In this document: positions 1-60,608 of the stretch, in pieces
Layout: the number at the start of each line of letters is the position of its first letter
Position numbering within the stretch: the first letter of the stretch is position 1
From: Chrysoporthe austroafricana
Taxonomy: Eukaryota; Ascomycota; Sordariomycetes; Diaporthales; Cryphonectriaceae
Assembly: GCA_001051155.2 (NCBI GenBank)
Contig: JYIP02000002.1
Span: 5,003,315-5,067,314 of the forward strand
DNA length: 64,000 nt
Reading direction: 5' to 3'
Made by a program: the position numbers and the translations under genes
Notes under the pieces: model-generated
Database searches by the model: none
Seen by the model: the letters and a program-made list of their open reading frames with translations, nothing else
What the model was told of the DNA's origin: nothing

Positions 1-199
1 CAAAGAAACCCGTCTCAGAGTCAACTGGATACCTTCCACCCGAAAAGTATTTGCCACAGAAGACGAAAGTATACCATTCGACAGTCGGCTTGACACGATC
101 TAAGATGATCAAACTCTATCTGAGGAGCGGCGCACTGCCGCTATACTCGGCATAAGCGATGACCATTGGATCGAGAACTTCAGGGCGCTCTTCTTCGTA

Positions 200-450
200 G
201 TGACGCTCAGCCTTGAATCGCCCGAGGGCAAGGTTGCCGCCGTAGAGGCGGCCCTGCGCGTAGCTGCGGATCCCAACGAGCTCGACCATAACATGGCAAG
301 CTGCGTAACCACGACTGGGTGCTGGCGTTGTTTGTCGACTGTAAACTGCATTACCAATTTAATGGAGGGCTGCATAACACAACTAATAACCTGCTGGCTA
401 TCGAGATCTTATCGCGCTACGGAGTGGATCCGTGTTGAACGAACCTAGGA
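200..450 (+). pseudogene. ankyrin-repeat fragment, broken
   Basis: The frame contains text resembling an ankyrin helix pair (AAVEAALRVAADPNE). About 50 codons later, in another frame, is a second ankyrin-like piece (LLAIEILSRYGVDP). The two are separated by a frame change, so no intact protein can be read. Ankyrin arrays of this style sit at the C-terminus of fungal STAND/NLR-like proteins. A second remnant of the same style lies at about 6290-6780. The upstream part is outside the window. The assignment rests on pattern recognition only. Confidence 0.35.
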
Positions 451-1211
451 ACGAGTGAACGAGTGTATTGAAGCTTAATCAGCTGAACTATCTGGAAGGA
501 GGAAAACTGCCCTTAGATAGAAGGCTCTTTGGTTCCTGGAAAGGCTATTGCCTTTCCTTTCAGCCGATAGGGTTCAGTTGGACAGCAATTATCGTTTCTA
601 TTTAGGAAGCTACGATGTTTTACGGCTGCTAAGGGCTGGGGAGCGCCTGGGTGCCTAAAAAGGTGCCTGAGAGGGTGCCTGAGAGGGTGCCTAGGAGCCT
701 TGTCGATATTCAACAGTCCATACCTAGCCGCTCCGTTCCTAGGCCCGAAGAGTGCACTAGACTACGATATGTGGTATCTGCCCCGGACCGAAAAGTGGCG
801 CTGTCGTTCTATTAGGCGGAAGATTTAGGTTGATTGGTTCGGAGAGGCAAGAAACTTGGGTAAAGATTCGGAAGAGCGCATGGAGAGTATATTCAGTCCC
901 GTCAACTAAGGGAAAGAGACCATATATCTGTACGTCTGTATAGTCCGAAATACCTATTCCTAAAATTCTAGCCAAGAGTATTCAGGTCTAGCTAAGATAT
1001 TAGTGGATTTAGGTAGGCTGAAATATCGTACGATTCCCTGACGGTGCTAGGCTGCATCCGGCATTCTATTACAGCTATATTACCGTAAAAGGGAGGATGT
1101 TGGAAGAAGCGGCTACAAGCTTGGACGGTGAGTAGGTCACAATCTACAAATATATCAAAGCAGCCTAGTCTCATTAAGCATTTCCCCTTATCCAATGGAA
1201 GCGAAAAAAAG

Positions 1212-1249
<38 letters not shown>

Positions 1250-1630
1250 AGAGGAAGAGCGCTATAGCGCATCCTTCATTTGTCCGGTAGAAAATTTCTC
1301 TGCACCACGGAGGCAATAATAACATAAAAGTGATTACCAGTGTCCCGATCTCGGCAATATTACCTTATATTTTCCCACAAATAATCAGGCCGTGAGGCGC
1401 TGATCATTTCTTCGATTTAATCAAAGGATATCCTCATGTATGAAATCTCCCGAGTCACTGTGAGCCGGCGCTATCCACCTCTCACGAACTAATCATTCAA
1501 CTGATCACAGCGCGGTGGCCTCATTTTGCAACAGCCCCTTTGTTCGGGCAGGGTGGTCATGGAGTAATCATTGCTGCAGAGCCCACCTTTGGCCCTCAGC
1601 CTGCCCCGCTAGTCTTCCATGCATTTCATG
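451..1630. other. AT-rich stretch without a gene
   Basis: I see no supported gene here. Near 660-690 are three tandem copies of a short unit reading gtgcctgagag. At 1204-1247 lies an almost pure A tract interrupted by single G bases. It makes the lysine-rich open frame at 1128-1319, which is not a gene. Confidence 0.5.
1204..1247 (+). repeat. poly(A) tract
   Basis: About 43 bases, nearly all A, with a few G interruptions. It could be a simple repeat, an old retroposed tail, or an assembly artefact like the A tracts at 29.2 and 60.5 kb. No target-site duplication is obvious. Confidence 0.7.
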
Positions 1631-1632
1631 CC

Positions 1633-2677
1633 TTACCTTATGAGACTCCCATCCCTGGCAGACCCCTCAGTACTCTTCTTCTCCCGGCAGCATTGCTCTT
1701 TTCCGCCCAGTGGCCGCTCCGGAGGACCGCCAGGAAACCCGATCTTTCTCCAGGAATCTACAGCAGACGGAAAACGAACATTAGTCCTGCTATCGTAACC
1801 ACGCAAGAAGATTGTCCCGTCCATTGCCACCATGCTAATAAGCGTAAACCATTCATCATCAGGCGGTGTAGAGATCCATTGCACTTCCGTACGCAAATTC
1901 TTTTGACCGTAATAGAATGGCTGCCAGTAGTACAACAGGGTGATTACATCAGTCGGAAAGAACCTGTAGATCAAAGCTCTAGTCAGCCGACGTTCGATAC
2001 ACGCTTCAGGTTATTCCTAACGCCTAAGAGTCATAACTTACTCTGTCTTTTGACGAAATCCCCGGTCAGTCCGTATAGTCCCGAGGAGTTTGCAATATTT
2101 ATCGTCGATTTCGTTCTTATTCTTTGCGTAATATTGTTGTAGAGGGCTCCACCTTAGTGGATACAATCCTTCCCTGACGTGGTATTCCCAGTACTCGCAA
2201 AGGTAAGATATCGCTCGGTCTGTTTTCATAAACCATTTTGTTGGTATATACCATGGCTTATTTTGCAAGCGCCTGGCTTCTCCGCTATGATCACTTTTGT
2301 GCCCGAAGTAGTGGAATTGATTCATTTCGCGGCCAAGGACTTCCAGAGCCCAGTCCTCCCGCAGGCGATCCAGTTCCCCGTGGTATCGATCCATAGCTGC
2401 CTTCCACTCCGGGTGGACGGAGTTGTTATTGGGATCCGCCGCTTCCTCTTCGGAGAAAACAGAAACTGCAGGCCGCAGGCCGCGGGCGACGTGAGTCGAC
2501 ATAAGCATTGACTTTGTGCGCGTAGTTTGCGCGATCAAGCCACAAGACCATCCTGATTGGTGGTAGACCTTCACGGGCAGCTGTTTCAACGTGTCTGAGT
2601 CGAGATGGCTGTGGATATTCGAGGCCAGGAGGGTCTAAACGGGTGTTCAGATATTGAAGCTTTCGTGTAGGATCCAA
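1633..2677 (-). CDS. hypothetical protein fragments, possibly a decayed gene
   Basis: Three minus-strand open stretches look protein-like but are not in one frame: 2677-2426, 2589-2038 and 1974-1633. The middle one is rich in W, Y, D and E and in helix-forming residues (HPEWKAAMDRYHGELDRLRED) and has normal composition. The third carries an aromatic-rich segment (YYWQPFYYGQ). They could be exons of one gene or pieces of a gene broken by frameshifts. I could not find clean donor and acceptor pairs joining them. I do not recognise the family. Transcript data would settle whether it is expressed. Confidence 0.3.
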
Positions 2678-2849
2678 GCTGGTACTGAAGTGAGTTTTCT
2701 ACTTCTTTATATAATGAGCATCACATGCCAAAAATCTGATTAGTCCGGCCTTGTACCCCGCTTCAGTGCGAAGTACAGAAACTAACTGTCGAATCAAACT
2801 CGGATAGGAATGGACGATCTTTGCTTTGGCAACCTTTTATTTCCTGAAA

Positions 2850-3405
2850 ACACCGCTAGACGCGGTGTTGGTAGGGCTGACTATTTTCGGGGCACCCTAA
2901 TATTTTAGCCAGATATGGCCATCTTCCTCTTGCTTTTCTCTAGCCTCCCCCTTCCACCCACCCCTCCTCTTCCTTCTCCCCACTCTCTTTTGTCTCTTAT
3001 TTCTCTTTCTCCTATCAAATTCGTAGCTAGCATTATAAGCAGACTCTAATAGATAGCAAACCAACCATTCCTTATGACACTAGTTTTCTCCTATTCCTGG
3101 TTAAGAGATTACGCAGATTCAGTCTTTTGTATTTAGTAAGAACAGATCAGATTCTACCACTTCCGGTGAATAGAGGGGAGACAATATTTGCGATCGTTCT
3201 TCGGAGAAGTACTTGCATAGGTGGTAAAGGGCCGGGTTATCTGCTATCTTTTGTGAGGTATCTATACCTTTCACCCGCGGATAGCACCAATATCGGCTAG
3301 GTTGGTGGTTCTAGTCAAGTAAGTATCGGCATTCTGTTCGAATGTTAGAAACCAGGCTTTGTCAGAGGCCTAGAACTTGCCACTTACGCCCATGGAGGTG
3401 AAAGG
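2850..3405 (-). pseudogene. diverged, shortened copy of the micro-exon gene
   Basis: Two blocks match the neighbouring micro-exon gene. About 2850-3200 matches about 3965-4310 (the 3' exons). About 3225-3405 matches about 5200-5395 (the zinc-knuckle exon and flanks). Everything between those blocks in the intact gene, including the heptad-exon array, is missing here. In a 34-base alignment within the zinc-knuckle exon I count 8 differences; 7 are G->A or C->T and one is a transversion. The knuckle cysteines are lost. The mutation pattern fits repeat-induced point mutation (RIP) of a duplicate, which is an inference. Confidence 0.6.
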
Positions 3406-3881
3406 TAGAAGAGGGTTATCATTGCCCAAGATCTGGCTGACGAGTGACGGTGTCTTGTTCCGGTATGACTCGTAGTTAGAAATCTGGTGAATACTGACAT
3501 CGCTTCCTGATTATCAGTAACTCTTCTCGGAATGGTATGGGTCCGGCCCGCTCGCGTCGGCACCTCTCATGCAAGAATCTGAGCTGGCTTCTAAAGTATG
3601 GAGTCATCGAGTCACAGGACATGAAGTGCATTTATATGTTAAGACAAGGTCAATGAAGAATTAACAAAAAGGAAAAGAAAAAAAACCCCCCCGCAAAAAA
3701 ACAAAGTTGAGTTGCTGCGTATTGTTAGCTCTTCATTGTCCTTTACCGGAGGCGATCTCATTCTTCTCTTAACACTGTTTGAGATTGGGAGCGCTGACTT
3801 ACCAATAGGGGGGGGAAAAAATGCTAATTCTTGGTAGCCCGGGATTGCTTCATCTGCATACTTGTTAGCTATATGAATCCT
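3406..3881. other. intergenic, no gene seen
   Basis: AT-rich sequence between the decayed copy and the stop of the micro-exon gene. It holds short A- and G-homopolymers near 3675-3700 and 3810. I see no coding signal. Confidence 0.4.
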
Positions 3882-5878
3882 TCAGTGTAGAATCTTGCCT
3901 CGACAACCCACCTTCTCCTCATACAACCCCTAAACCAAAGTGATATCGCATTAGTACGGTGTAAGTGTAGTACGGCGTTGGTAACGGGCAGGGCTAATCT
4001 CACCATGGCTGATTTCGGGGTGCCCTATCAGAAACATTTTAGTCAGCCATCTCAGATGGAAGGACAGCATCAGATATGGCTTACACCCCCACCATTGTCC
4101 TCCTTCTCCTCCTCGATCTTCTTCTCCTATCAAGTATTTAGCATTGTTATTCGGCCTAAATAGAAAATAACTCAATGTGACTAACCATCATGTTCCCCTC
4201 TGCCTGATAAGGGATTAGACAGGGTCAGTATCTTGTTCTTTTCGAGGCCCCAGATCCTGCGCTTGCCTGCGCAAATAGAGGAGACAATGCTTACGACTGC
4301 TTTGTCGATTATTTCCTATGCAACAAACGCCATCTGTAAGTAGCTGATAGTAGCCTGTAGACGTGAATAATTATATCAATCAAAAACGGCTAACCTGCTT
4401 CGTCTGCTCGAGCTTCTCGAGCTCGGCTTGCATGGCCTGTAAATTGAAAAGAGGTAATATTAGTAAACTGTTGATACGCAACGAAAATAGAACAGGGTAT
4501 AGACTCACGACCATCATTTCTTTCATATTCTATGGCGAAGTCTAACGGATGTCAGTAACTCTTATACGCATTCAGGAAACAATAGACGTGAAGTTGCGCT
4601 CTAGAACAAAACACAGAATAAGGCATAGACTCACCGCCATTTTATTCTTGATACCCTATCGTAAAGTCGAACGAATGTCAGCACGTAGTCAGGAAGCAGT
4701 AGACGTGAAGTTGCGTTCCACAACGAAACACACAACGGGCGTATACTTACGGTGATCTTGGCGTTGATGCCCTATCGCGAAGTCGAATGCATGTTAATAC
4801 CTCTTCTACGTATAAGAGCCTTCCGTTTGGGCCGAACGGGCGATAGTGATCAAACCTCACCTCTGCACTGTCGATTAAATTCTGTAAAATATTTCTCAGT
4901 AATTTGAGCAGCAAGACATGCACGTGCATGTTTATCGACCCCCACCCGGTGGAGGGCGGGTGACTTACGTCTCTCTTGTTCATGTAGTACTAAGACAACG
5001 AGTCAGTATAATTAGACTCCCAGATCTTGGCAGAATGTAATCTTACCGCAGAGGTTTCCTACAGAACACAATTAGTTCATTGCCTTTCCTTCACAGACCT
5101 CGGGCAGGAACACTTACGACCAGGACAGCCTGCTGGATCCCGTGTATCTGAGGTTAGCTAAATCTTTCTCTTGACAACCGAATACTAGAAAAATTTTTTG
5201 ACGTGGAAACTGGGCAGGCTTATCTGCTCTTCTTCGTGAGATACTTACGCCTCCTTCCGCCCGCGGGCGGCACCAACATCGGCCGGGGCGGTGGCCACGG
5301 CCGCCACAGTATGGGCAATTCTATTTGCACGTTAGCAACCAGGCCTTCCCAGAGACCTTGGACCTAGCACTTACGGTCGTGGAGGAAGAAGAGAGGGCGG
5401 CGGCAGCGGCAGCGGAGGAGGGGATGGTAGTGGCGGCGGCAGCAGTAGTGGCTACATCATGTCAGTACTAATGTCATATGTATGATATAGGGATGCGGAT
5501 CAAATGTACTCTTGGTGACATGGTAGTTCTCTTATCATTTATCATATGTCAGTACCAATAAGATGATGACAAGGCGATACGGGAGACACACGGTTGCGCC
5601 GCGGCTGGTCTGTCAAGTCATACGGATCAGCGATATACTCTCAACTCGGGATGATAGGAAAGGAGGAAAGAACTTACAGAACCGAGCTGGGCGGCCTTTT
5701 TTATTGTCTTCCAAAGAGTTAGCCCCCTTCTTGGAAATGACTGTAGCCTGCGGAACTTAGGACTTGGTCGCGGAGCTGCTCACGGTGTGGTGGTGCCACT
5801 GTGCAAAGTGTTAGTTACCTCAATACCGAATTCTTCTTGACCACGCGATTACTTACTCTTGTCTTCTAGAAGAGTTTT
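3882..5878 (-). CDS. micro-exon gene: zinc-knuckle plus heptad coiled-coil protein
   Basis: I traced 20 exons in one frame, 5' to 3': 5878-5857, 5798-5784, 5695-5678, 5609-5581, 5530-5510, 5451-5375, 5320-5249, 5147-5118, 5058-5047, 4989-4969, 4881-4861, 4771-4751, 4655-4635, 4529-4509, 4436-4395, 4315-4295, 4203-4186, 4126-4085, 4024-4004, 3929-3882 (stop TGA). Exon lengths are mostly 12-42 nt, and ten exons are exactly 21 or 42. Introns are 50-105 nt, mostly with GTRAG-type donors and CTAAC/CTGAC branch sites. The donor of the 5530-5510 exon (GTACAT) is weak. From 5320 on, every exon is phase 0. The product has a Thr/Pro/Ala/Ser-rich N-terminal part, a CX2CX4HX4C zinc knuckle (CPYCGGRGHRPGRC), then a coiled coil with one heptad per exon, a Glu/Lys-rich stretch and a short Cys-containing tail. 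The start is unresolved. A frame-consistent option adds 6205-6191 and 6432-6270 (256 aa in all), but that lies antisense to ankyrin debris. I do not recognise the family. Confidence 0.72.
4295..4989 (-). repeat. array of heptad-encoding 21/42-nt exons
   Basis: Seven consecutive exons (4989-4969, 4881-4861, 4771-4751, 4655-4635, 4529-4509, 4436-4395, 4315-4295) encode eight heptads in phase 0. Residue 2 of every heptad is hydrophobic: Y, L, I, I, M, M, L, I in order. Residue 6 is A, I, M, M or L in most. Examples are GINAKIT and NMKEMMV. The coiled-coil register is therefore fixed by exon boundaries, so skipping or adding an exon would change coil length by whole heptads without a frameshift. 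Confidence 0.75.
4509..4771 (-). repeat. tandem duplicated exon-intron units
   Basis: Exon plus intron units recur with recognisable identity. The introns at 4530-4634 and 4656-4750 share a block around AACTTCACGTCTA and similar branch/acceptor regions (CTGACAT, then CGACTT or AGACTT, then ATAG). The 21-nt exons they flank share the GGTATCAA/GGCATCAA start. The unit length is roughly 116-126 bp. This indicates growth of the array by duplication of whole exon-intron units rather than exons alone. Confidence 0.65.
5249..5320 (-). other. exon carrying a CCHC zinc knuckle
   Basis: A 72-nt exon in phase 0 reads NCPYCGGRGHRPGRC and continues with WC. The spacing C-X2-C-X4-H-X4-C is that of the retroviral/CNBP-type zinc knuckle, which binds single-stranded RNA or DNA in characterised proteins. 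The acceptor is AAATAG and the donor GTAAGT. The phase used here is the same one that gives the clean heptads downstream, which supports it independently. Confidence 0.7.
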
Positions 5879-6289
5879 CTGCTTAAGAGCATTGTTAGCT
5901 GAGACTCATTCCACGGAGATTCTCGCAGTCAAGGTTCCAGCGGACGCAGTCCAAAGAGGAGCAGCAGGGGCCTGGTTCTTGTACTTACATCAACGAGAAT
6001 TGGGTCTTTTTAGCAAACAAAAAGTCAGTATACATCTACCACAACTCGTACGGGGGCGGTGGGGTACATACGAATTTAGTTGCGGTGGCTGAAGAACAAA
6101 GTAAACGCGGGACGGGCTCATGGCGGAGATGTGGCACTTAACACAATTCAATTCCCACTAAGGAAGGGAAGGAACTCATATGGCACCTACCGTTGAGTTT
6201 TCGACCTTGATGACACATAATGCAATTTTTAAGAAATTAAGAAAGGGAAGGATTTGAGGTCGCACCTACCGCTAAGCTTCGGCAATGCC

Positions 6290-6780
6290 CGCCTGCAAAA
6301 TTCAAACGCACAACTAAACACCACTCTTAATTCACACCCAAAAAATTCTGCAGTAATTGTGACTGCAGAAATTGGGGATGGAGATGGTCTAGTCCAGATT
6401 ACAGAGTTCGGTCGCAGAAAGAGATGGTACATCCTTGCGGCATACGCTCAGGATGGCATCATGCTAACGCGAGCATATGGAGACCAGGTCACAATCACAG
6501 AGGGTGTGGTCAAGGCTGCTGCTAGCGGTTGAGACAGTGGCAAAGAGACGATGGGCCTTCTTCATAGACAACGACTTGAACCTTTTTGTGGCCTCTATTT
6601 GGTCTCAGGTCTACCTCTTTGCATCAACATGTGGTCAACTAGCTGTGATTGACTATTTAAGAGAGCATTTCCCCTCCCGGCCCGTCTCTTAAGTTTACAA
6701 CGCTGCCAAAAATGGAGATGTTCAGACGTTGATGAAATACCTGAGTGAGGGCATTGGCTGGCTGGCATAGGCAGCATTAC
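6290..6780 (+). pseudogene. ankyrin/STAND repeat remnant
   Basis: Plus-strand text resembles the repeated C-terminal region of fungal NLR-like proteins: RAYGDQVTITEGVVKAAA, then (after a TGA at about 6531 and a frame change) SGKETMGLL. Later come CGQLAVIDYLREHFPSRPVS, a stop, and YNAAKNGDVQTLMKYLSEG, which is ankyrin-like. At least two frame changes and two in-frame stops prevent a continuous product. It is best read as the decayed 3' part of a STAND/ankyrin gene. The family call comes from motif memory, not a search. Confidence 0.5.
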
Positions 6781-6807
6781 ACCCCTGCTTTGAGCGCCCC
6801 AACCTCC

Positions 6808-7022
6808 TCCTGCGAATGTGAGGCCGCCCGAGCCCCTCTGAGCGTCAGACCAGCAAAAGCGGCTGCACTGCGCCCAAATCCGCGAAAACCGACCCAGTCA
6901 GACCCGACCCTTGCAGCGAACGTGCCACATGTTTCCTGAATTTGTCTGGGTGGCTTTTTGCGGCTGCGGGCGCGGTGCAGCTGACCTGCTGTTTTGGTGC
7001 TGCTAGAGGGCTAATAGTTGTT
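6808..7022. repeat. degenerate direct repeat, left copy
   Basis: Two blocks match the right copy at about 8930-9320. One surrounds ccgcccgagcccctctga and extends to cccttgcag (right copy: ccgaccgagccctttga and tccttgcag). The other surrounds gcagctgacctgctg with agagggctaat (right copy: gtagctgatctactg with ggagggctgat). The copies are in the same orientation and bracket the BCS1-like gene. Most differences are C/T and G/A. Confidence 0.55.
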
Positions 7023-7111
7023 GCTCTCCGCCCCCCCATGAGCCACCGCCAACCGCATATTTACTGTTGAGTGATTCCCAAAGTGAGCCCCCCCCCGGCC
7101 CTCTCCTTAGA

Positions 7112-7117
7112 TATAAA
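7112..7117 (+). promoter_or_regulatory. TATA-like box of the AAA ATPase gene
   Basis: TATAAA about 75 bp upstream of the ATG at 7191, followed by a pyrimidine-rich leader. Position and sequence fit a core promoter. There is no experimental support. Confidence 0.4.
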
Positions 7118-7190
7118 GTGCTCTCCTACCCTATAGATCTCTCAAGTTACCAAGTCTTGTCATATATCTCATTCTTGTCAACCACTCCTC

Positions 7191-8756
7191 ATGGATTTTA
7201 TTAACTCCCATCCCGCCGCTGAGATAGCTGCTCTTCTCGTCAGCCTCACTAAGGGCCTTCTTAGCTTTGATACGGCCTTCATAATCAACTTGGGCCTGCT
7301 CCTTGCCACCTGTTCCACTATTTTACACTTCTTCAGAGGCTTCATAACCAATTTCGCGCGCAACTACTTTATCTCTACTGTCGAGATCGATGGCATAGAC
7401 CCCGTCTACCTTTACATTATGAAATGGATGACTGACCACCACGTTCGCTTGACGTCCAAGACCGTCAAGGCAACGGCTTTTCCTAATGTAACGGAGGAAT
7501 ATAACGAAGCGTCACCCTTATTCCGAAACGATGATCAGAAGGGTGGCATCGAGGAAGTTACTTCCAGCGGCTCAGGTGCACAACAGTCCGGCCGGATCAA
7601 CTACCGAGGCATGGCAGGACGGCTGCCTATCCGGCTCTTGCCCACAGGCCGCTATATCTTCTGGCATCGGAATACTTTATTCGTCTTTACGCATTCCACG
7701 CGCGAGAAAGAATCGAACCATGACATCATGAATGTTGACAACCAGATCGTCCTCAGCTGCTGGCGCCGCTCGCTGGGGCCGATCCGGGATCTCCTCCAGG
7801 AGGCTCAAGACGAGTTTTTGGACGCGTCCGGGTCGGGGACTCGCATTTACCGCTCGTGCGCAGGGCCGGGGGACCAGTTCCATTGGACCCAGATTACTCG
7901 GCGGCCGGCCCGGGGCCTAGATACGGTTATTATGGACGAAACCAAGAAGCAGGAGCTCGTAAGCGATATTAATGAATATCTGCTCCCCGCTACGCGGAAA
8001 TGGTATGCCGACCACGGGATCCCTTACCGTCGGGGCTATCTCTTTTCGGGCATGCCAGGTACGGGCAAGACGAGTTTGGCGTTTGCGCTGGCCGGCGTCT
8101 TCGGGCTGGAGATTTATTCCGTCAGCCTGGCTGACCCAAAGCTGACCGAGTCCGAGTTGGTTCGCCTGTTCTCAAAGCTTCCGCGGTGGTCGATCGTTCT
8201 TCTTGAAGACGTCGATGCAGCGGGCATCAAGAGGAACATCTCCGACAAAGCGTCGTCTAACCATCAAAGTCATATAGCGACGCGCCAGTCCGGAAGGGAA
8301 GATGGTCCCGGCTATCACCAAGGCCTCACCCTGTCTGGTCTTCTCAATGCTATCGATGGTGTTGCGTCGCACGAAGGCCGTATCTTGATTATGACGACGA
8401 ATGCGCCCGAAGCCCTTGATCCGGCGTTAGTCCGACCTGGAAGGGTTGACATGCGCGTTCATATTGGCCTAGCAACGTACGATCAACTTCGACAATTGTT
8501 TCTCGCCATATATAGAAGAAATATAACGCTTGGTTCCGAGGATGAGAAGGAAGACTCTTTGGCATACCTCGCCGAGACTTTTGCAAATAGGGTACCACCC
8601 GACCGCGTTAGCACGGCAGCAGTGCAGGGCCACCTGCTATGCTATAAGCATGACCCGCGCAAGGCGCTGCAGGCTACGGAGGGCTGGCTTAAGAACATGC
8701 TTGACCGAGATGGCAGCCCTCGCGCGAATGGCGCAGATGGCAGCGCAGACGATTAG
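7191..8756 (+). CDS. BCS1-like AAA ATPase
   Basis: An intronless 521-residue protein. A hydrophobic segment lies near residues 30-50, followed by the BCS1 N-terminal domain and a C-terminal AAA domain. Walker A is GMPGTGKTS near residue 287, Walker B is IVLLEDVDAA near 334, and the second region of homology with its arginine is in TTNAPEALDPALVRPGRVD near 400. Yeast Bcs1 is a mitochondrial inner-membrane translocase that inserts the Rieske protein into complex III. Filamentous fungi carry many divergent paralogues of unknown role, and this looks like one of them. It is flanked by degenerate direct repeats and STAND debris. A TATA-like box precedes the ATG. The catalytic motifs look intact. 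Confidence 0.88.
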   Translation: MDFINSHPAAEIAALLVSLTKGLLSFDTAFIINLGLLLATCSTILHFFRGFITNFARNYFISTVEIDGIDPVYLYIMKWMTDHHVRLTSKTVKATAFPNVTEEYNEASPLFRNDDQKGGIEEVTSSGSGAQQSGRINYRGMAGRLPIRLLPTGRYIFWHRNTLFVFTHSTREKESNHDIMNVDNQIVLSCWRRSLGPIRDLLQEAQDEFLDASGSGTRIYRSCAGPGDQFHWTQITRRPARGLDTVIMDETKKQELVSDINEYLLPATRKWYADHGIPYRRGYLFSGMPGTGKTSLAFALAGVFGLEIYSVSLADPKLTESELVRLFSKLPRWSIVLLEDVDAAGIKRNISDKASSNHQSHIATRQSGREDGPGYHQGLTLSGLLNAIDGVASHEGRILIMTTNAPEALDPALVRPGRVDMRVHIGLATYDQLRQLFLAIYRRNITLGSEDEKEDSLAYLAETFANRVPPDRVSTAAVQGHLLCYKHDPRKALQATEGWLKNMLDRDGSPRANGADGSADD

Positions 8757-9971
8757 GCCTTTGTTTAGCCTCGGCCTGAAACAACTTTTGGTATTGGGGG
8801 ATGGGGTATAGCATGTATTCACAAGTGCTCGGTTCTAAATATTGTTAAATGGGAGTATGATGATTTTGGTTTTAGAAGTTCACTATTAGGGATTCCTTGA
8901 GCTTTTCCTTACCAGCCCTTTACTCTAATCTGCAGATGTGGGACCGACCGAGCCCTTTGACCGTGAAAAAACGACGCAGTTAGCCCGGTCCTTGCAGTCC
9001 AAAATGGTCTGCATCGTTCGCAAGCGAACCGGCTCGTTCTTCTATGAACATGTGTAAAATGTGGCTAGATTTGGTGTTTCTGCTGGTGTTTTTTCTGCTA
9101 GATGGAGGCTGGAGGTTGTGCATATTTTAATGGGTTGAGAGGGACGGCCAGGCAGTCCGAAGGCTGCCATGCTCGTACCACAGAGACAAATGACCCAGAC
9201 AGGATGCAGAACGGTATATATTATCATGCTACATGCATTTCAAGCCTGACTGGATCCTTTTTCGCTGGTGTGGGTGTGATGTAGCTGATCTACTGTCTTG
9301 CCGCTCCTGGAGGGCTGATTGGGGGTTGGGTGCGTGGAGCTTGAGTAAGAGAGTATCCAAGCAGATCTACTTGAGGTGATTATTATACTATCGATTAGAG
9401 ATACTTTTGGCCAGTATCATACAAGATACCCCTTGGCACCGTTCTAGGATCGGTTGATTTTTTTTTTTTATTCGACAAGAGAGATCTATGTCTCGGAAGC
9501 TGCGTTTCCTTTTATAATCGAGCTGATGAGGCTGAATGTTTTAAATTCTGCAAATCCGCTTTATGACGAAAGGTCGGGGGGGGGGGTGGGCAGGCATGAT
9601 GTTATTCTATCGATATGTTCAGTGCACCCAGTCTCCGTTTTGCTCCGTCTTCGTTACAGACCTCTCAGGGTTGGATCAAGCCTCGACAGCCTGGGCCGAT
9701 GGTATGAGGAGGGTGTTGTAAGGAGCACTTGATTATGATTTCACTGTTGGTAGCTGAAGATGGTTCCAGATATAATTGCGTTGTGAAAAGCTTCTCTATA
9801 AAAATTTCGAGCCTCGCTCAACATTCACAATCTTTCGCTATATCATTAGTTAATGCCGTATTGTATTCTGTTGGTTCTCATCAAATATTTAAACGAGGAA
9901 AGTGAACCGAAGTATTCGACCAGAGAGGGAAAACTCCAAACTAGTCTCTCTGCCATGGTCCAGACAAATAT
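8757..9971. other. intergenic, with the right repeat copy
   Basis: I see no supported gene. The right copy of the direct repeat lies at about 8930-9320. A TATAAAAA motif occurs at 9797-9804, but the plus-strand frame that follows it runs antisense to the CorA-like gene and has no protein character. Confidence 0.45.
8930..9320. repeat. degenerate direct repeat, right copy
   Basis: Same two blocks as at 6808-7022, here separated by about 150 extra bases. Compare gtagctgatctactg here with gcagctgacctgctg on the left: the changes are transitions. The pair may be remnants of a mobile element or of a segmental duplication. Confidence 0.5.
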
Positions 9972-11768
9972 TCAAACCATGACACTGATATCGCTATCCA
10001 CGTCTTTCAGTGTTTTTTCGTTCTCTTTTTCCGCTACTATATCCATCCGTCTGGAATATCTCCAGGTGACAATGATGAAAAGCGCAGCGAGGCCTGCATA
10101 TAGAGCTATCCAGGGTGAAACAATAATCTGACTGTTCGAGGGTATCCAGTTGAAAAAACTCATAGAGAACAGTCCCTTTTGCGCATAATCAGTTTTATTC
10201 TGTATGGTTTGAAGTTGAGAACTCACAGCGAGGAAGGTTGGAGGCAGAAAATACATGCCTAGCCTAGAAATAATCTTCATTGTGCTGCTGTCTCTGCTTG
10301 AGGCACGTGCGAGACTATAACTCGCTCTTGAATCCTGCCTTGCGTAATAATCTCTTTCCTTTATTTCCCTTTTGGTCAGAATAGTTGCGCAAAGCATGTT
10401 TATCAGATTTAAAGGGTGGCGAACCATTTGCATAGCGAGAGCCATGCCGCCCAGAAGGCTCTGACAATGTCGCAACTTGCTATTCATCTCAGCTGTCATC
10501 TCTTCTAATCTTGATCCAATATACATCGCGCTCTCATTTTCATTTGGGTATACTGAAGAATCATACGTATCGATGTTCGGTCGCGTTTTGGACGGGTCCT
10601 TGAGGTGGCTGTTCATCGATTCAAGAAGAGCAAGCAGAGTTTGCATCCCATTCTTCAGCTGGCTTGTTGACAGCCATAGTTCGACAGCCTTGGAATCTCT
10701 TTCGGTTAATGTGATCCTCCTCGTCTTCTCGTTACTCCTTTGAATCAAGGGGCGACGACCTGCTCCTTCGTTCCTGAGTTGAATTTTCATGTCGAGGATC
10801 TTCTGATCAAGCTCTGTCCACTTATCGTCCATGGCGTCCAGAAGTCGCTTACGCTCCAGCTCGGCAAACAGCATAGGTAGTACGAGTGGATGGAATACTG
10901 AGCTCTTGATTCGCTGTAGCCAAGCTTCTATATCCTCAAGAACATCATCTGTGCAGCCATATGCTACTGCAAGTATCAGGGGCTTGTTAGTAAAGCAGGT
11001 AGCCGACAGAACAATATCTTCGCCCCTGGGAAGAGACTCGGTATCCGACTTGCAGTGATACACTGGAGTTCTGGTCAATACCTGATACCTTCTCATCCTC
11101 CATAAAGTGCTCAACAAGGATGGGGAACGGGTTTTCGTGCCAGCGGGTAGGACTCATACCTACTGAGGGGCAACTAGAAGCCCCAAGGTCCCAATTCACG
11201 TGCCTGGTATTCAAGACTGCGGTCGAATCTCTGGCTACGACACTAGCTAGCGACCTATGCTGATACAGTTGTGCGCAGACATGTTTAAAAGTCTGGCCAT
11301 CGTACGGAAGAGCAGTGGCTTTCCATGTGTCTTGTGGCCTTCTGAGACGTCTATGCATAGCTAGGAAAAGCGTGGGGCGGTGTTCCATGGGCAATGATGA
11401 GCCGATCTAATTTCGCTCTGTGAGTATACGCATAGCTACGATTCGATAGCATCTAAACTAAGTAGCAAGTATTTCAAGCCTCACTTGCTGTGCCCATGTA
11501 AGGTAACGATTTCCAGAATTGACAGTATCTGGGTCGAAGACCACATTGCCCTTCGAAAGATGATACATGTCAGTGTCTTGCTCGAGTCGCTATTTGCTTT
11601 ATAGAGGCCAGTATAGCTTACATTCCCGTTATCCTGAATTTTGATAGTACGAATATCACAGGGCTGCTCGGGATGAAAGCCGATGTCTCTGTGGTCTCGT
11701 TTTTCGAACTGATTACCGCGAGACAACCAGTCCATATTGACTTGAAGATGCTTGGCCTCAGGAGGCAA
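9972..11768 (-). CDS. CorA-like C-terminal membrane protein
   Basis: Exons 11768-11622, 11550-11485 and 11406-11082 join cleanly: the donors are GTAAGC and GTGAGG, and the first two junctions are phase 0. The last part (10966-9972) is in another frame. A GTATTG donor at 11081, a TACTAAC branch site and an AG at 10967 restore the frame and give 510 aa. A one-base frameshift near 10985 is the alternative. The C-terminus has two hydrophobic segments (around FLPPTFLAVSS and IALYAGLAALFIIVTW) after a long helical region, the arrangement of CorA-type Mg2+ channels, though the GMN signature is not visible. Fungal proteins of this kind are of unknown function. The N-terminus is uncertain because the frame stays open upstream of 11768. 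Confidence 0.6.
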
Positions 11769-13296
11769 GCTGAGGCCAGAAGCCGCAAATGGGGTTACTT
11801 CGTTATATCAAAAGAACGTGGCGACCTTGGGAGAGATATTCAAAGAGTGAACATGCCAAGTCCTCGATATTTCGATAACTCTGGAGAACGATGGTACTAA
11901 ATACCACATCGGCGGGCAACTCAGAACAAAGCATCAGGGAATATCAGCGAAGATCTCCAAGCTGCTTCATTCGATCACGGAGGACTGTCTTGATCACATA
12001 GCGGGGTGAGAGGGACCCTAATCTGGAGGCTGAGAATGAACATGTGTCACACTACTAAAGGGCCCCCACGTTTGGGCACGAATGCAGGGCGTGGTTAGCA
12101 CTAATGTACGAGAACACCTGATGTAAAAAGTAGATATCTACAACCAGTCTCATGGAAGATGCCACCTCCAAGTGAGCTGCAGATTGATGCAGGCAATCGA
12201 GTCCACTAATGTGATGCAGAGGCGAAGTATCGATAATCCGATCAAGGCAGCTCACCGCCCACCTTTTCTACAATGCCTGCCTTTCCCAGGACACGTAGCC
12301 GGACAACATTGACTTGCATGGGTCGCAGAAGTATACGAAACAGTAAGTCGCAGGCTGATTTCTTTGCTCACAGACCGGCCTGAGTCGTAGGGCCGATGCG
12401 AGAATCTCTCTCATATGGCGGGGCGACCAATCTATCTTATAGCCTGCCGCGCCACGCTAATCGCCTTGCCAACATCAAGTGTAAAATCAAGGCTCCCACT
12501 CTGTTTTCCGCAATTCTTTTTTTTTTAAAAAAAAAAAAAAAATTCATACCAGGCTGTAAGACCTAGATTTCATGTGAAGAACCTTATAAATATCTTGCTT
12601 TGCACCTGTCCGGTGAGCTCACGAGCTTCAATCCCGACCCCTATGTCTTTCAACTCGTTTAAAAAGTTATTTGGATGGACAGCACGCAACATGCCTGGAG
12701 ATACAGACTTGAACTTCAATGAGACCGATATTATCGCCACTCGTTATGATATGCCAGAAGTTTTGACGGCTGCGTTGCTAGAGTTGAAATTCAAAAATAG
12801 CGAAATTAGAATAAGGGCAAGAGCATTCCATTAATGCAATGAGATAATAGTGCTCTTAAGCTAACCAGTTGGCGTATAGCGACAAGGACAGAAGTTCCTT
12901 CTGCACCTTCCGCGAAAGCTCGAGCCGGTCAGTCCCAAGAGCCTTAAATACGAATCGAGTCTGCTTATATTAATTAGCAAATGCACTGAACAGACCGAGA
13001 AGGATGGTATCGTGAGGAAATTGAAGGAAGCTCGCAGGAATGAATGAGGATTAAGATCGATTCGGCTGGTCAGGGTTTTTGTCATCAAGATCAACTTCGT
13101 ATTGTCTGGATGGCTGCAAAGCTACTGTATTCATAGACTTGAAGGGCTGGTCCAGAAAAGATGCAATATCTACATGCGACCCCCACCATCCGGCTAAATC
13201 ATTTATCAACCCGAACCTGTTTCCCAGAACACAGAAACCTCAATGCATATGTTGTTTCTGATGTTTCCAAAGCTGCTGCCAAGTTTCAAGAATTGT
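11769..13296. other. intergenic; one weak small ORF
   Basis: No confident gene. A plus-strand frame at 12574-12834 (86 codons, or 63 from an internal ATG) has protein-like composition near its end (MPEVLTAALLELKF). It has no recognisable domain and no neighbour supporting it. A T/A homopolymer pair occurs at about 12519-12542. Confidence 0.35.
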
Positions 13297-15033
13297 TTAC
13301 AGACCCCTGAAGAAGGTGGTTACTTCGCTAGCATCCGCCCTTGTTTCGACGTCAACCACCAGCATACGTTCTTGTATGAATTCTACAAATGCTTGAAGTT
13401 TACTGCTACAACCTTGTTGTTCTTTCAATTGTCTCAGATGCTTCTTGCGGTATCAGTTCTACATGTCGCTATCGGGAGAATGAGGAAGGAAACTTCGCAC
13501 GCACTGTAATTACACAGTCTTTGAGTTGAAAGACAATCTCGACATGTGAGACAATCTGGAATGAATGTCGGGTACTTGTCCGATTAGGTGCAAATTCCCT
13601 AGTCGTCTTGCAGTCCACAATGGGGAATAATTTTCGTTTCCCTTTGGCTTTCTTAAAAAATATATCATCTTCAAATCTGGAATCGGTAGATTCTGGCGCA
13701 TCTTGTTCTTTCAACCGCTCATCTCGGAAGCACTTCCAGCCAGGCCAGCCACGAAGTGCCCAAGTTACAAACTCGAGAAAAACGCAGCCAAGGCACCACA
13801 CGTCATATTTGGACGAAGTCGCTTCGTTCTCTGGCGGTCTTTGAGTCTTGACATGTGGAATAAATCTTAAGTCAATGCTCTCTCCAGGCCTGAATTGCCG
13901 AGCTTCACCGAAGTCTGAAAGTTTCAGGATGAAGTGCTGCTTTCCCCCATCAAAGGATTCGAAACACAGAATGTTTTCCGGCTTGACATCCAAGTGTAAC
14001 TGATGTACAGATCCGCTGTCACTTAACCCTTGAGTAGTTGCAAGAGCATCGGTGACTTGGTAACACTCGTTAAAGAGCCAGTTGTCTGAGTACCAGGTGG
14101 CCTCAGTGGGGTTGTAAGTCTTCCACAGCTCTTGAAGATTGCCTCCTTGGGCCCATGGAAACAAGAGATAAGGTATCTGGCAATGTTCGAAAGCTGCTAA
14201 GAGTGGCACGATTCGGATATGCTGGGGTGTGTTTCGGTTCGCCTGGACTTCTCGTTTGAACATTTCTTTTCTTGCTTCTAATATGCTAACGTCGGTAAAG
14301 AATTTCACAGCAAAGTAATCATCACCATTCTCTATATTGGGCTTCTAAGTGTCAAAAATTGGTTTGGAGCGTTTGTATTTCCAAATTCAGTAATACTTAC
14401 TAAATTGTGGTTCCTGGTGTAGATGCGAACCTTTTGTACCACAGTGACCTGCCCTTCGATATCGTCGTCCAGGCTTTCGATTCTGTCTCGCGCGCTAGTA
14501 AGCTCGCTCCAAGGAAGAGAGACCTCATCGTGGAACTCTTGAACATTTGCGCTCAGACTCTCGATGAAGGGCGTGAAGACTTGCCACTGCCAGTAATCGA
14601 ATAATCTGGCTTCAGCTTCCGTAAGACCAAGGGCTGTCGAATTGCCTTGGAGATTACGTTGGGCGAACCAGATGCGGTCACACACCGGATGTAGGGCAGG
14701 TCCCAAAAATACATTTTCTCTACCGACGAGAATTAGTATTGAGAACAACACCCTCCATCCGGTACAGCTACACCGGTTACATAAACAATTCCCCGACTCT
14801 GGGCATAGACGTTGCGCAATTTCTTGGTATATGGCGTTATCATCCGTCGGGCTCGAACTCGCTTCCAAGATCTTCAGAACACTTTTGTGGTTGATGATAT
14901 CGAACAAGGCGTCTCGGGGTATGAATCGCTGACGGTTATTATTGAGGTCCGGTTTCAGTTCTTGCAGAAGCCTGTCCCTGAGGTCCCAACGCAGCTTTAG
15001 CAAGTACTGGTCAGAGTCAAAGCCTTCGGCCAT
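13297..15033 (-). CDS. protein kinase-like protein with a novel N-terminal region
   Basis: Three exons: 15033-14401, 14344-13505 and 13440-13297. All junctions are phase 0, giving 538 aa. The start at 15033 (MAEGFDSDQ) is preferred over an upstream ATG at 15129. The N-terminal 190 residues are unrecognised. The kinase domain follows, with the lysine of FAVK near residue 225, HLDVKPENIL near 328 (Leu replaces the usual Arg of HRD), and DFGEA near 354. The C-lobe ends in exon 3 (FVEFIQERMLVVDVETRAD). The glycine-rich loop is poor (GQVTVV instead of GXGXXG), so catalytic activity is uncertain. Family members in filamentous fungi are numerous and mostly uncharacterised. The gene is divergent from the small gene starting at 15674. 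Confidence 0.75.
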
Positions 15034-15475
15034 GTTATCCGATTTTCGGATGGTAGCCGTTCTGCGTAATGGCAGGTGCAGGAAAGGCCCGCCAGAGTGC
15101 TTAGACGATTGTCGATGAGTAAAACCCAATCAGAAGATGAAAAGAGGGTTACCTCAGTGTTCTCGGAACGCTGTTATCTAGTACTTATAATGAAGACAGC
15201 CTACAGGTTTAGCGTGATATCAGTAGAGGGAAAGTCTGGTCTAGAGGCTTCAGTGTGGGTGTCACTGCATATTCCACTCCACCCTCAGCTAGGTCCAGAC
15301 TCACACCATCAGCAGAGGTTGGGGATTGATTGACAGTGATTAGTGGGTAGAGATTACGGATTACGAATTACCTAAAGGGTAGTCAGCAGAGCTTCCTCTT
15401 CGGTAGCTGCCATGCAGTATAGCCCAGCCTTACCGCCCAAATATTAAATACACTGCTGCACGGAGACCAAAAAAA

Positions 15476-15531
<56 letters not shown>

Positions 15532-15673
15532 AATAACGCAGCTCTTCATCAAAAGGTGATACTTAAGTAAGGTTTCGTCCATTGCAGTACATCGAATCAA
15601 TCTCAATTCACACTGCTGCAGCATTATTTGGACTTGCAATTTATAAGAGAGTATATATTACAGAAGCTTCACA
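15034..15673. other. divergent intergenic region with a microsatellite
   Basis: About 640 bp between two divergently transcribed starts, so it may hold a shared promoter. It includes the GAAA repeat at 15469-15533. I see no clear shared operator. Confidence 0.4.
15469..15533 (+). repeat. (GAAA)n microsatellite
   Basis: About 14 tandem GAAA units preceded by an A run. It produces the poly-Phe/Leu/Ser open frame on the minus strand at 15430-15639, which is not a gene. Confidence 0.95.
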
Positions 15674-16019
15674 ATGGCTCCTGTAGCCTCATTTTTCCAA
15701 AAGCATCTGCCGATTTTCCCTTTTCCTGGTTTACATCACCGGTCTAGGGATCATTCGCCTTCCATCAGATCATCAACTATCACAGAACATGAGGGCTTGA
15801 TGAAACAGAATGTGATTGCAGGCACTTGGGTGAATGAGCATGAACTTAGAAAGCTATGCAATGTTAAGTTCGGGGACCGGTATATACTGCGGGTGGGTAT
15901 TTGCGAAGTCTTCTTCGTACAATGACTAACATACTCAGCTGCGATCCAATCAGTACACTCTGTATGCGCGAGAACGGCTGAATGATGCGGATATCAGGCG
16001 TTGCTGTTCAATATGGTAA
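15674..16019 (+). CDS. small hypothetical protein, 99 aa
   Basis: Exons 15674-15892 and 15939-16019 are joined by a 46-nt intron with GTGGGT donor, GACTAAC branch site and CAG acceptor. The junction is phase 0. The frame continues without a stop to TAA. The product has a Pro/His-rich N-terminus and a charged C-terminal half (TLYARERLNDADIRR). A TATATA motif lies just upstream of the ATG. I do not recognise it. It is divergent from the kinase-like gene about 640 bp away, so a functional pairing is possible but unproven. Confidence 0.5.
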
Positions 16020-17842
16020 TGCAAGTCGCTTCCTATTGATAGGAATGCAGGTGAAATCTTTTTACAGGTCTTCGATTACTTTCCCTGCTGTTGATTCCCT
16101 ATTACATACCTATATGAGGATAACGAAATGGCTTTATATGGATATAGGATTTACTGAAGCCCAGTAGCTTTAAGTTCCATTTTTCCAGTACTGTAGTATC
16201 TATTCAGCTCTTTGTCACTTTGTGAACAGGATTTCTAGCATTGACTTTTGTTATATGAGTTGCTGTACAAGAAGTGGCAAGCTCTTCAAGGGTCCGAGCA
16301 GCAGGTATAGGTCCAGTCATTCAGTGTCTCTGTTGAAGCGCGCATCTTGCAATATCAAGGAACAATCACATGTCAAACTGAGAGCCTTGGTATACAATTT
16401 GACTTTTAAACTGATTATATTAAATGATCTAAGTTGAAGGGAAAACCTTTAGCATTCTCGGAGCTTAGCAAATGCTAAAACCACTGCATCAGGCCTATCT
16501 ATTGCAGCTATTCAAGCTCAGTGACAGGATTTATTGTCATTGAGCTGCTAGCTAGATGAATGAGAGGGGTTCATGGTTTGCTGCTGATGCTATAGTAGCT
16601 GAATAGTATCTATTCAAAAGAGGCCGAGGTGAGAGAAATGGACTGGTGTAAGTGGTAGACAGTCCAGGTGGATCCGGCTGCATCGCATATTGCAACTCAT
16701 TCTAGAGTCCTTTTTTTTTTTTTATCCCAACGATATTACAGTAAAGTGATTAATGCTTCATATGGAAATTTGTCTAAGTATTAATCGATTCCAGACTTGA
16801 AAGAATGGTAAAGCACTCGGTTCTGCATTAAAATAGTAAGACCTCGCTGTGCGAGACCGGAAAAAAAAAAGACTATAATGCAGATACTATCGAAGATAGC
16901 TCTGGTACTACCATTTCTACACTCAAAACTGAGGCAAATGTCGGAGGAAAGATGGCCTGTGTAATCTCGATTCCGATATTTGCGTTCTTCCGGCTTCCTC
17001 GGAATGTGGGAGCAACCTGGGATTTTGAACACCATTCCTGCTCCCACTTTCCGCTCCACTTGCCCCGTAAACTGTCTAGACCCGGGGTTCATGGGTCCGG
17101 GTGAGGCTCTATATTTAGTTTAATCATTGTAGTAGCGGGTTGTTCTGGAATGGAGATCTGTTAGAGTGCCCAGCTCCCACTATGGTTCTTTTATTCTAGA
17201 AGACAATCTACCTCAACTTTATCGTCACGCGGTACGAAATCGCCTTGACATCCGATCATCCTGTTGTGAACCCAGCAACGTAATAGGATGCATTGGTGAG
17301 GTATCTATCAACCAGCCGGGCTAAGTGGAGTGTAGCATCCATACTCTCTACAAAGTTTCTGCCGATCACGAATGTTTCCCCTCATCTCCACCGCGGGGAC
17401 TTGTCTAGCACGAGCTCTCTTGGTGCCGGATCGTGTCCACGGGAACCCTGCCGCAGGCCTCTCAGCTCATCATACATCTAATCCTTCCTCTTATTGTATC
17501 CGCCTGAAGGAATGAAGCTACCCTTCGCAAACGTGAAATGAATACGTACGCGACACCGGCTACTTCCTACGACGACTCGCGAAAAACTACTAATCTCAGG
17601 AGAAGATAACCGATCAAGGTGCCGAGTTGGAATAATCGTGACGTTTCCCGGGACCGACTCTTCGAATAGCTCATCTGTAAGCATTCGGCATTTGTACCGG
17701 ACGATCGAGGGTTTATGTCACCCCACATCCCGAGTCAATAAATGATCGAGCGATATATTGTTTTGTACATAAGCAGTCTCTTGCATGCCTCGTTCCTGAC
17801 TTCAGCCCTTGAAGCCAATTTGGCACAGCAGCGGACAGTATC
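16020..17842. other. intergenic, no gene seen
   Basis: About 1.8 kb of mixed AT-rich sequence with T and A homopolymers near 16710 and 16860. Open frames are short and lack protein character. This is roughly the boundary between the AT-rich accessory half and the GC-richer conserved half. Confidence 0.5.
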
Positions 17843-19260
17843 ATGGCTCTTCACCATCTCAAGACTGCGCGGTTGAGCGCAAACGTGGAATCGACCAACC
17901 AAAAGGTTACTGGTATTGTTCAAGGAGTCATCCAAGCCATCAGGGCCGACGGGGACAAAGCCGTGAGGAACTACTCCGAGACCTTCGACAAATGGTCCCC
18001 CGAATCATTCAAGCTGTCACAGGAACAGATACAGGAATGCATTGCCAAAGTTCCCCCACAGACTATACAGGATATCAAGACTGCTCAAGCAAATGTTCGC
18101 AAATTTGCTGAAGCCCAGAGGTCCTGCATCAAGGATCTTGAAATTGAGATACAACCTGGCGTGATTCTCGGACACAAGAACAATCCGATCAATCGAGTCG
18201 GCGCGTGAGTCTCCTGCGAGATGAAGGTGGGAATAGATAGCTGACCAGATTAGGTATATCCCTGGTGGCCGCTATCCCCTGCTTGCCTCTGCACATATGA
18301 CCATTCTTACGGCCAAAGTTGCTGGAGTAAAGCAGGTTATTGCATGCACGCCTCCAATTCAAGGAAAATTGCCTTACGCAACCATTGCAGCAGCTCACTT
18401 TGCTGGCGCCGATGAAATTTTCATCCTCGGCGGTACGCAAGCCATTGCTGCTATGGCAATAGGTACGGAGACGGTGAAGAAGGTGGACTTTATTGCCGGC
18501 CCCGGCAATGCCTTCGTAGCCGAAGCGAAACGTCTCCTCTTTGGAAGCATCGGAATTGACCTGTTCGCCGGCCCAACCGAGACCCTGATTGTGGCAGACG
18601 AGCATGCCGACCCTTTCACTATTGCAACCGACTTGCTATCACAAGCCGAGCATGGTCCTGATTCTCCGGCCGTCCTCATTACGTCTTCGGAACGTGTCGG
18701 CAAAGAGACTATCAAGATTATAGACAAGCAGCTTGAGAATCTGCCAACTGCCGAGATAGCGGGAGTTTCTTGGAGGGATTATGGACAGGTTGTTCTCGTG
18801 AATAGCACCGATGAGGCTTTCCAGGTTGCGGACAGTTACTCGAGCGAGCATGTTCAGATCATGACTCAAAACCCCAGGGAGGCGCTCGAAAAGATGACCA
18901 ACTATGGAGCACTCTTCCTCGGCGAGAAAACTTGTGTTTCGTATGGCGACAAGGTAAGGCCCTATCACCTCTTCTTCATGCTTGGTTCCTGACGACGAGT
19001 AGTGTATTGGCACAAATCATGTGCTGCCGACCCGCAAAGCCGGCAATTACACTGGCGGTCTGTGGGTGGGCAAGTTCCTCAAGACTCAGACATATCAGCA
19101 GGTCTTGGACGAGAAAGTGAGTGGCGAGATAGGAAGACTCTGCGGTAGATGCTCGCGGGCGGAGAACTTCGAGGGCCACGCTCGGTCCGGCGACTTGAGA
19201 GCACACAAGTATCTGGGCGATGCGTATGAATGGATCAAGATCTCGCAGCCCGGCAATTGA
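17843..19260 (+). CDS. HisD-family NAD-dependent alcohol dehydrogenase
   Basis: Exons 17843-18204, 18254-18953 and 19003-19260 (both introns 49 nt) give 439 aa. It is collinear with histidinol dehydrogenase: VGAYIPGGRYPL near residue 120, the nucleotide-binding region IAGPGNAFVAEAKR, the metal-site region LLSQAEHGPDS, catalytic Glu-His in SSEHVQIM, and GTNHVLPT. Fungi normally make histidine with a HisD domain inside trifunctional HIS4. A stand-alone copy like this is more likely a relative such as the sulfopropanediol dehydrogenase (HpsN) branch, or another polyol oxidase, oxidising an alcohol to an acid with NAD+. The substrate cannot be read from the sequence. The family is largely bacterial, so ancient transfer is possible. 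Confidence 0.85.
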
Positions 19261-60512: not shown

Positions 60513-60554
<42 letters not shown>

Positions 60555-60569
60555 GGCCCCGGCCCCCCN

Positions 60570-60608
<39 letters not shown>
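60513..60608 (+). repeat. paired poly(A) runs flanking an N
   Basis: A run of about 38 A, then a short GC segment with the single undetermined base at 60569, then another A run of about 39. It parallels the structure at 29.2 kb. Confidence 0.6.

Follow-up and report, generated by a model that had tools for sequence, protein, structure and literature searches.

Introduction

The question raised by this locus is whether about 2 kb on the minus strand of a fungal contig can hold a protein-coding gene cut into some 20 exons, most of them only a few codons long, and, if so, what such an arrangement would do for the protein. The locus lies in a 64,000-nt stretch of Chrysoporthe austroafricana DNA (contig JYIP02000002.1, positions 5,003,315 to 5,067,314), which as a whole is referred to here as the window and in whose coordinates all positions are given unless otherwise noted. 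The gene content of the window is fungal, including a fungal-specific transcription factor with a Zn(2)-Cys(6) cluster, a fungal rhodopsin-domain protein, a DUF1996 protein and a BCS1-type AAA ATPase. The G+C content per kb is 40-53% in positions 1-19000 and 49-77% in positions 19001-64000, the micro-exon gene being located in the G+C-poorer part. At 29172-29305 and 60513-60608, a single N (29260 and 60569, respectively) stands between two A runs of 23-39 nt, perhaps as an assembly artefact.

Exon chain and gene model

The exons were first laid out by eye on the minus strand of positions 1-9000 and were then checked by script. An automatic chain search was also used, which adds up the donor, branch and acceptor scores of each open-frame chain, charges a fixed cost for every intron, selects the chain with the highest total and permits no exon shorter than 9 nt; its weights were the fungal consensus and were identical in every control. 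The original prediction of at least 20 micro-exons on the minus strand was borne out by the revised model, which contains 20 exons and 19 introns from position 5878 down (Table 1), with GT and AG borders at every intron and a joined frame that is open for 190 codons and then reaches TAG. The smallest exon of the model is 12 nt, and the introns are 54-140 nt in length (median 74). Between 5878 and 3824, 573 nt are exon and 1482 nt are intron (72%), in agreement with the earlier estimates of about 590 coding nucleotides and about 70% intron, and the two expected 42-nt exons are present; the 21-nt exons number seven, one fewer than had been counted. The uniform phase 0 claimed for the last 14 exons is retained and extends in the revised model to the last 15, all of which begin in phase 0.

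Table 1. Predicted features of the micro-exon gene and its surroundings, in the order in which they are met on the minus strand
Feature	Length (nt)	Position in window	Strand	Remarks
Intron upstream of first exon		5988-5879	-	Score 24.4 in automatic chain
Exon	22	5857..5878	-	GT/AG borders; last base may supply the A of an ATG that the next intron interrupts (putative start, from the sequence)
Exon	15	5784..5798	-	Splice borders, automatic chain
Exon	30	5678..5707	-	Encodes KKGRP; automatic chain prefers 5686-5678, 9 nt
Exon	18	5592..5609	-	Splice borders, automatic chain
Exon, Ser/Thr/Ala-rich linker	77	5375..5451	-	Low-complexity stretch of paralog aligns
Exon, C-x2-C-x4-H-x4-C (zinc-knuckle pattern)	72	5249..5320	-	Paralog keeps motif, 51/72 bases
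Exon	30	5118..5147	-	Automatic chain prefers 5132-5118, 15 nt; paralog drawn 21 nt
Exon	12	5047..5058	-	Paralog also 12 nt
Exon	21	4969..4989	-	Paralog 21 nt if its GC donor works
Exon, heptad block begins	21	4861..4881	-	Donor lost in paralog
Exon, heptad	21	4751..4771	-	Paralog 21 nt; tandem exon+intron unit, copy 1 of three
Exon, heptad	21	4635..4655	-	Unit copy 2; missing from paralog
Exon, heptad	21	4509..4529	-	Unit copy 3; missing from paralog
Exon, two heptads	42	4395..4436	-	Paralog as drawn 42 nt
Exon, heptad	21	4295..4315	-	Paralog 21 nt; acceptor taken from paralog; automatic chain: exon from 4343
Exon	18	4186..4203	-	Paralog 21 nt; automatic chain: exon from 4199
Exon	42	4085..4126	-	Paralog 30 nt
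Exon	21	4004..4024	-	Paralog as drawn 21 nt
Exon	18	3912..3929	-	Paralog 18 nt
Last coding exon	30	3824..3853	-	TAG 3826-3824; paralog has stop-bearing last exon at same place
Intron behind stop		3715..3802	-	Conserved in paralog; score 24.4 in both copies
Degenerate fragment of a further copy, around knuckle exon		3229..3398	-	69% over 174 columns to gene, E 3e-14
Gene D, two exons, protein without known family		1633..2551	-	Downstream of micro-exon gene; duplicated with it, same order

The end of the gene had to be moved. The TGA at 3882, which had been taken as the natural stop, can be reached only by a transcript that keeps the intron 3911-3854. At the corresponding site, the second copy of the gene in the genome (the paralog described below) has a donor (GTGAGC), a CTAAT branch-like site, an acceptor (CAG) and a last exon with a stop, a layout which favours splicing on, past 3882, so that the most likely last exon of the window gene ends at 3824, with TAG at 3826-3824. 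Acceptors differ between the automatic chain and the revised model at five places (5687, 5133, 4344, 4200 and 3824). The paralog was used for choosing those at 4344, 4200 and 3824; there is no paralog counterpart of 5687, and at 5133 the paralog exon as drawn (21 nt) matches neither choice. As for the coding start, an ATG at 6432 was considered, from which the frame is open for 68 codons, but the by-eye join to the chain hit a stop and this candidate was rejected. The candidate 5' end of the model is hydrophilic by eye. Upstream of the gene (minus strand, 6159-6279), a 42-nt unit with a donor-like word occurs twice (76% alike, 79 nt apart), possibly as 5' UTR exons.

Comparison with the paralog

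When the whole genome (48.15 Mb in 22 contigs, the window being part of contig C12) was searched at the DNA level, a single further locus was recovered, split into two segments within C21:1016669-1018165. The chain score of this paralog is 81.5, with 13 introns. Twelve exon pairs follow one another in the same order in both copies; eight of the 12 are equal in length, and all 12 are multiples of three in both copies. The paralog exon borders were drawn with the window copy in view, and the automatic chain redraws five of the 12 paired paralog exons, either at the acceptor (giving exons of 15, 23, 27 and 16 nt) or at the donor (giving one of 85 nt), its last paralog exon (54 nt) overrunning the stop. 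For the motif exon, the window copy has NCPYCGGRGHRPGRCWCRPRAEGG and the paralog RCPHCGKMGHQPSRCWCRPPAEGG. No paralog match was found to the part upstream of the linker, so that it is the chain which supports the predicted N-terminus.

The identity between the copies is 208/327 (64%) in exons and 334/527 (63%) in introns, the latter being calculated from nine of 11 introns since two were omitted for exon loss and duplication. Exons and introns are therefore alike in overall similarity, and the codon-position pattern alone tells them apart, with matches at positions 1, 2 and 3 in 56, 55 and 40 of 76 codons, respectively. For these 76 codons, which come from the eight equal-length exons, the dN/dS ratio in the predicted frame was 0.26 (bootstrap 0.09-0.53; 0.0005 of resamples at least 1), as compared to 1.74 and 1.42 in the frames shifted by 1 and 2, and the removal of the knuckle exon (52 codons left) gave the same value, 0.26 (0.10-0.62). 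The splice dinucleotides of the window copy are also kept in the paralog more often than other GT or AG words (20 of 26 vs 76 of 165 ungapped cases; Fisher p 0.003), in a comparison that used fixed whole-region alignments and excluded gapped cases (5 splice, 15 other). Of the 16 donors and 15 acceptors in the fixed alignment, five are gapped and six differ in the paralog. These data indicate that the exons evolve as protein between the two copies, and that they do so in the predicted frame only.

The two copies and their surroundings also carry marks of decay, and among the alternative explanations the one that survives best, although we regard it as unlikely, is that the two copies descend from a working gene and that one or both are now pseudogenes, like the adjoining fragment. 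In the paralog, the counterpart of exon 4881-4861 has no working donor and seems dead there, and the donor of another exon is GC. The whole-genome DNA search found no intact further copies, and a search with the knuckle returned the same two places. The degenerate fragment, which sits between the micro-exon gene and gene D, has stops in all three frames, and in the window copy of gene D a frame-shifting 7-bp difference is found near the start, so that reading from the expected ATG (2551) runs into a stop; in the paralog copy of gene D, the first exon is open. Against decay of the micro-exon gene itself, however, the window chain is open over its whole 573 nt with GT and AG at every intron, and the dN/dS ratio of 0.26, although assignable to neither branch in particular, points to constraint for much of the time since the duplication.

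Gene D was found at two places in the genome and has a dN/dS ratio of 0.36 between them (200 compared codons). Four metagenome proteins are related to it (38-66% identical), none of which has a precomputed domain; when three of the four were compared with Pfam, the single hit lay below its cut-off. A search for relatives gave 47 pattern matches to gene D in viral contigs and 64 in prokaryote contigs, none of which was confirmed. The predicted fold is helical, at low confidence (mean pLDDT 60.4). The micro-exon gene and gene D may form a functional module, or may simply be one duplicated segment.

Heptad periodicity and growth of the exon array

In the exons from 4881 to 4295, the predicted translation consists of seven consecutive heptads (NLIDSAE, GINAKIT, GIKNKMA, NMKEMMV, AMQAELE, KLEQTKQ and EIIDKAV). 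All seven carry I, L or M at position 2, and four carry a core residue at position 6, so that core residues occupy 11 of the 14 places; only 10 of 20,000 shuffles were as good in their best register. With the five heptads of the paralog added to these seven, 3 of 20,000 shuffles were as good, and for the paralog heptads alone the figure was 3931 of 20,000, which is not significant. Since the seven-heptad block was picked after seeing the sequence, the cautious figure is the 277 of 20,000 obtained with the full set of 11 window heptads; within this set, the three unit copies are not mutually independent. The 3-4 hydrophobic spacing is that of a coiled coil, and the exon borders hold its register fixed. 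It is thus plausible that one 21-nt phase-0 exon corresponds to one coiled-coil heptad in a fixed register, and that the tail of the protein would form a coiled coil.

An exon together with its neighbouring intron forms a unit that is present in three tandem copies in the window (Table 1) and in one copy in the paralog. Among the 171 pairs of introns within the gene, this unit duplication (introns 10-12) stands out with z values of 26.1 and 11.3, the next pair having 4.9. The three unit copies, and the fact that only the introns of that unit are strongly alike, argue that the array arose, at least in part, through the copying of exon plus intron in tandem, each step of which adds one heptad to the predicted protein. 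A separate similarity is seen between exons 4881-4861 and 4315-4295 (74% over 27 nt including the donor; minus strand, 4851-4877 and 4285-4311), perhaps from an older duplication of a heptad unit.

The intron comparison also bears on the explanation that a compact coding sequence was cut by mobile introns, the 21-nt spacing being a by-product. Mobile introns of this type are known as introner-like elements, and the similar lengths of the nineteen introns (Exon chain and gene model) would fit such an invasion. Near-identical introns, the feature of introners, were however not seen within the gene, where the unit duplication supplies the only strongly alike pairs, and where intron copies do exist the exon was copied along with the intron. 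We therefore consider an invasion of this kind improbable.

Controls against chance

In the target (minus strand, 6600-3601) and with a cost of 14 per intron, the optimal chain had a score of 132.5 and 21 introns. By comparison, 200 dinucleotide shuffles of the target had a mean score of 13.4 and a maximum of 33.5, and the maximum was 31.6 among 78 other 3-kb segments of the window on both strands (82 in total, from which the four minus-strand segments overlapping the target were excluded and the plus strand of the same place was retained) and 25.0 among 136 segments from 14 loci elsewhere. The optimal chain contained seven 21-nt exons, as compared to a mean of 0.26 and a maximum of 3 in 300 shuffles under looser settings; six of the seven are common to the revised model, and one lies behind the stop. 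The pattern YAG-21-GTRAGT was matched six times in the window (1.29 expected), and five of the six matches are inside the gene, one of these behind the stop. Donor and acceptor words are common, and shuffles can reach up to 16 introns at low score, but the view that an intergenic stretch has merely strung splice-like words together is contradicted by the chain scores, the number of 21-nt exons, the paralog layout and the frame-specific constraint, and we give it hardly any credence. Overall, these controls of the splice chain, a diverged paralog with a similar exon layout and protein-type evolution confined to the predicted frame uphold the original claim of a real micro-exon gene, which this locus very probably contains and which would be transcribed and spliced as modelled.

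Predicted protein and searches for relatives

The predicted protein has about 180-190 residues and would begin with a short basic segment, followed by a linker rich in Ser, Thr and Ala, the C-x2-C-x4-H-x4-C motif and a tail consisting mainly of heptads. The KKGRP predicted for the third exon resembles the core of an AT-hook. The CCHC zinc knuckle has the pattern C-x2-C-x4-H-x4-C with Gly before His, and this pattern, including the Gly, is read in both copies of the gene, where it precedes the predicted coil. No match to a zinc-knuckle Pfam model was obtained with the spliced proteins (E up to 1) or with the knuckle frames (E up to 10), and the knuckle reading frame as a two-row profile found no homolog among 4 candidates. 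The Pfam search gave eight hits for the spliced product of the window, all below the curated cut-offs, and none for that of the paralog. When the spliced protein was compared by a word-based method with about 5.8 billion predicted proteins, 2075 candidates and no homologs at E up to 10 were obtained, and Rfam gave no match in 2000-7100 at E up to 0.1. The cysteine motif would bind zinc and nucleic acid, and the coil would assemble the protein.

Discussion

The explanation that we favour, at a probability of roughly 0.7, is that the locus is a fungal protein-coding gene whose transcript would be spliced from about 20 micro-exons and whose predicted tail consists largely of heptads. In the heptad block, each 21-nt phase-0 exon would encode one heptad whose core residues occupy exon positions 2 and 6, and a 42-nt exon would encode two. 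Since neither the reading frame nor the register of the coiled coil is disturbed at the exon borders, the coil could grow or shrink by whole exon-plus-intron units, and the gain, loss or skipping of an exon would make it longer or shorter while the protein stays intact; regulated exon skipping is speculative. More tentatively, as a possibility to which we give somewhat less than even odds, both the length and the pairing specificity of the coil might be adjusted through the duplication, loss or alternative splicing of individual exons, with frame and register intact.

In fibrillar collagen genes, 54-bp exons encode a whole number of Gly-X-Y repeats, so that frame and register are kept. The heptad exons of the micro-exon gene would resemble these in encoding whole structural repeats, although the repeats are Gly-X-Y triplets there and predicted coiled-coil heptads here. 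No fungal gene with heptad-sized exons was found in the literature searched, which mostly lay outside subscription journals.

The nank genes of Tuber melanosporum, which are cited as having codon-sized, alternatively spliced microexons (PMC4986451, PMC3689799, PMC10197012), are likewise ascomycete genes with many tiny frame-keeping exons. Theirs are 3-bp exons in NACHT-ankyrin receptors; the exons modelled here, in a chain search that permitted none below 9 nt, are 12-42 nt and would encode heptads. In the part of the gene from 5878 on, no Pfam match to NACHT or ankyrin was found at E up to 1. Xlr2 of Trichoderma virens is another filamentous ascomycete gene with a micro-exon, a single 20-nt exon that switches a DNA-binding domain, whereas about 20 exons, mostly multiples of three, are present here (PMC11121469). 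Outside the fungi, the MEG genes of Schistosoma mansoni are similar in their 10-20 short exons, mostly multiples of three, and differ in that their introns are long, their exons mostly of 15 bp and their proteins equipped with a signal peptide at the N-terminus (PMC10526429); the introns here are 54-140 nt, and the candidate start of the protein is hydrophilic by eye. The bicycle genes of aphids share the small internal exons in one uniform phase, with about 17 exons on average; their internal exons start in phase 2 (PMC9168663), whereas phase 0 is the rule in the last 15 exons of the present model.

Since the word-based search of about 5.8 billion predicted proteins returned no relative of the spliced product, genes of this kind may well escape gene finders. 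With about 20 small exons in 2 kb, the locus would provide a test of how fungal splicing handles exons of 12-21 nt, and if one exon does equal one heptad, it would be a clean natural case of the length of a coil evolving via exon copy number.
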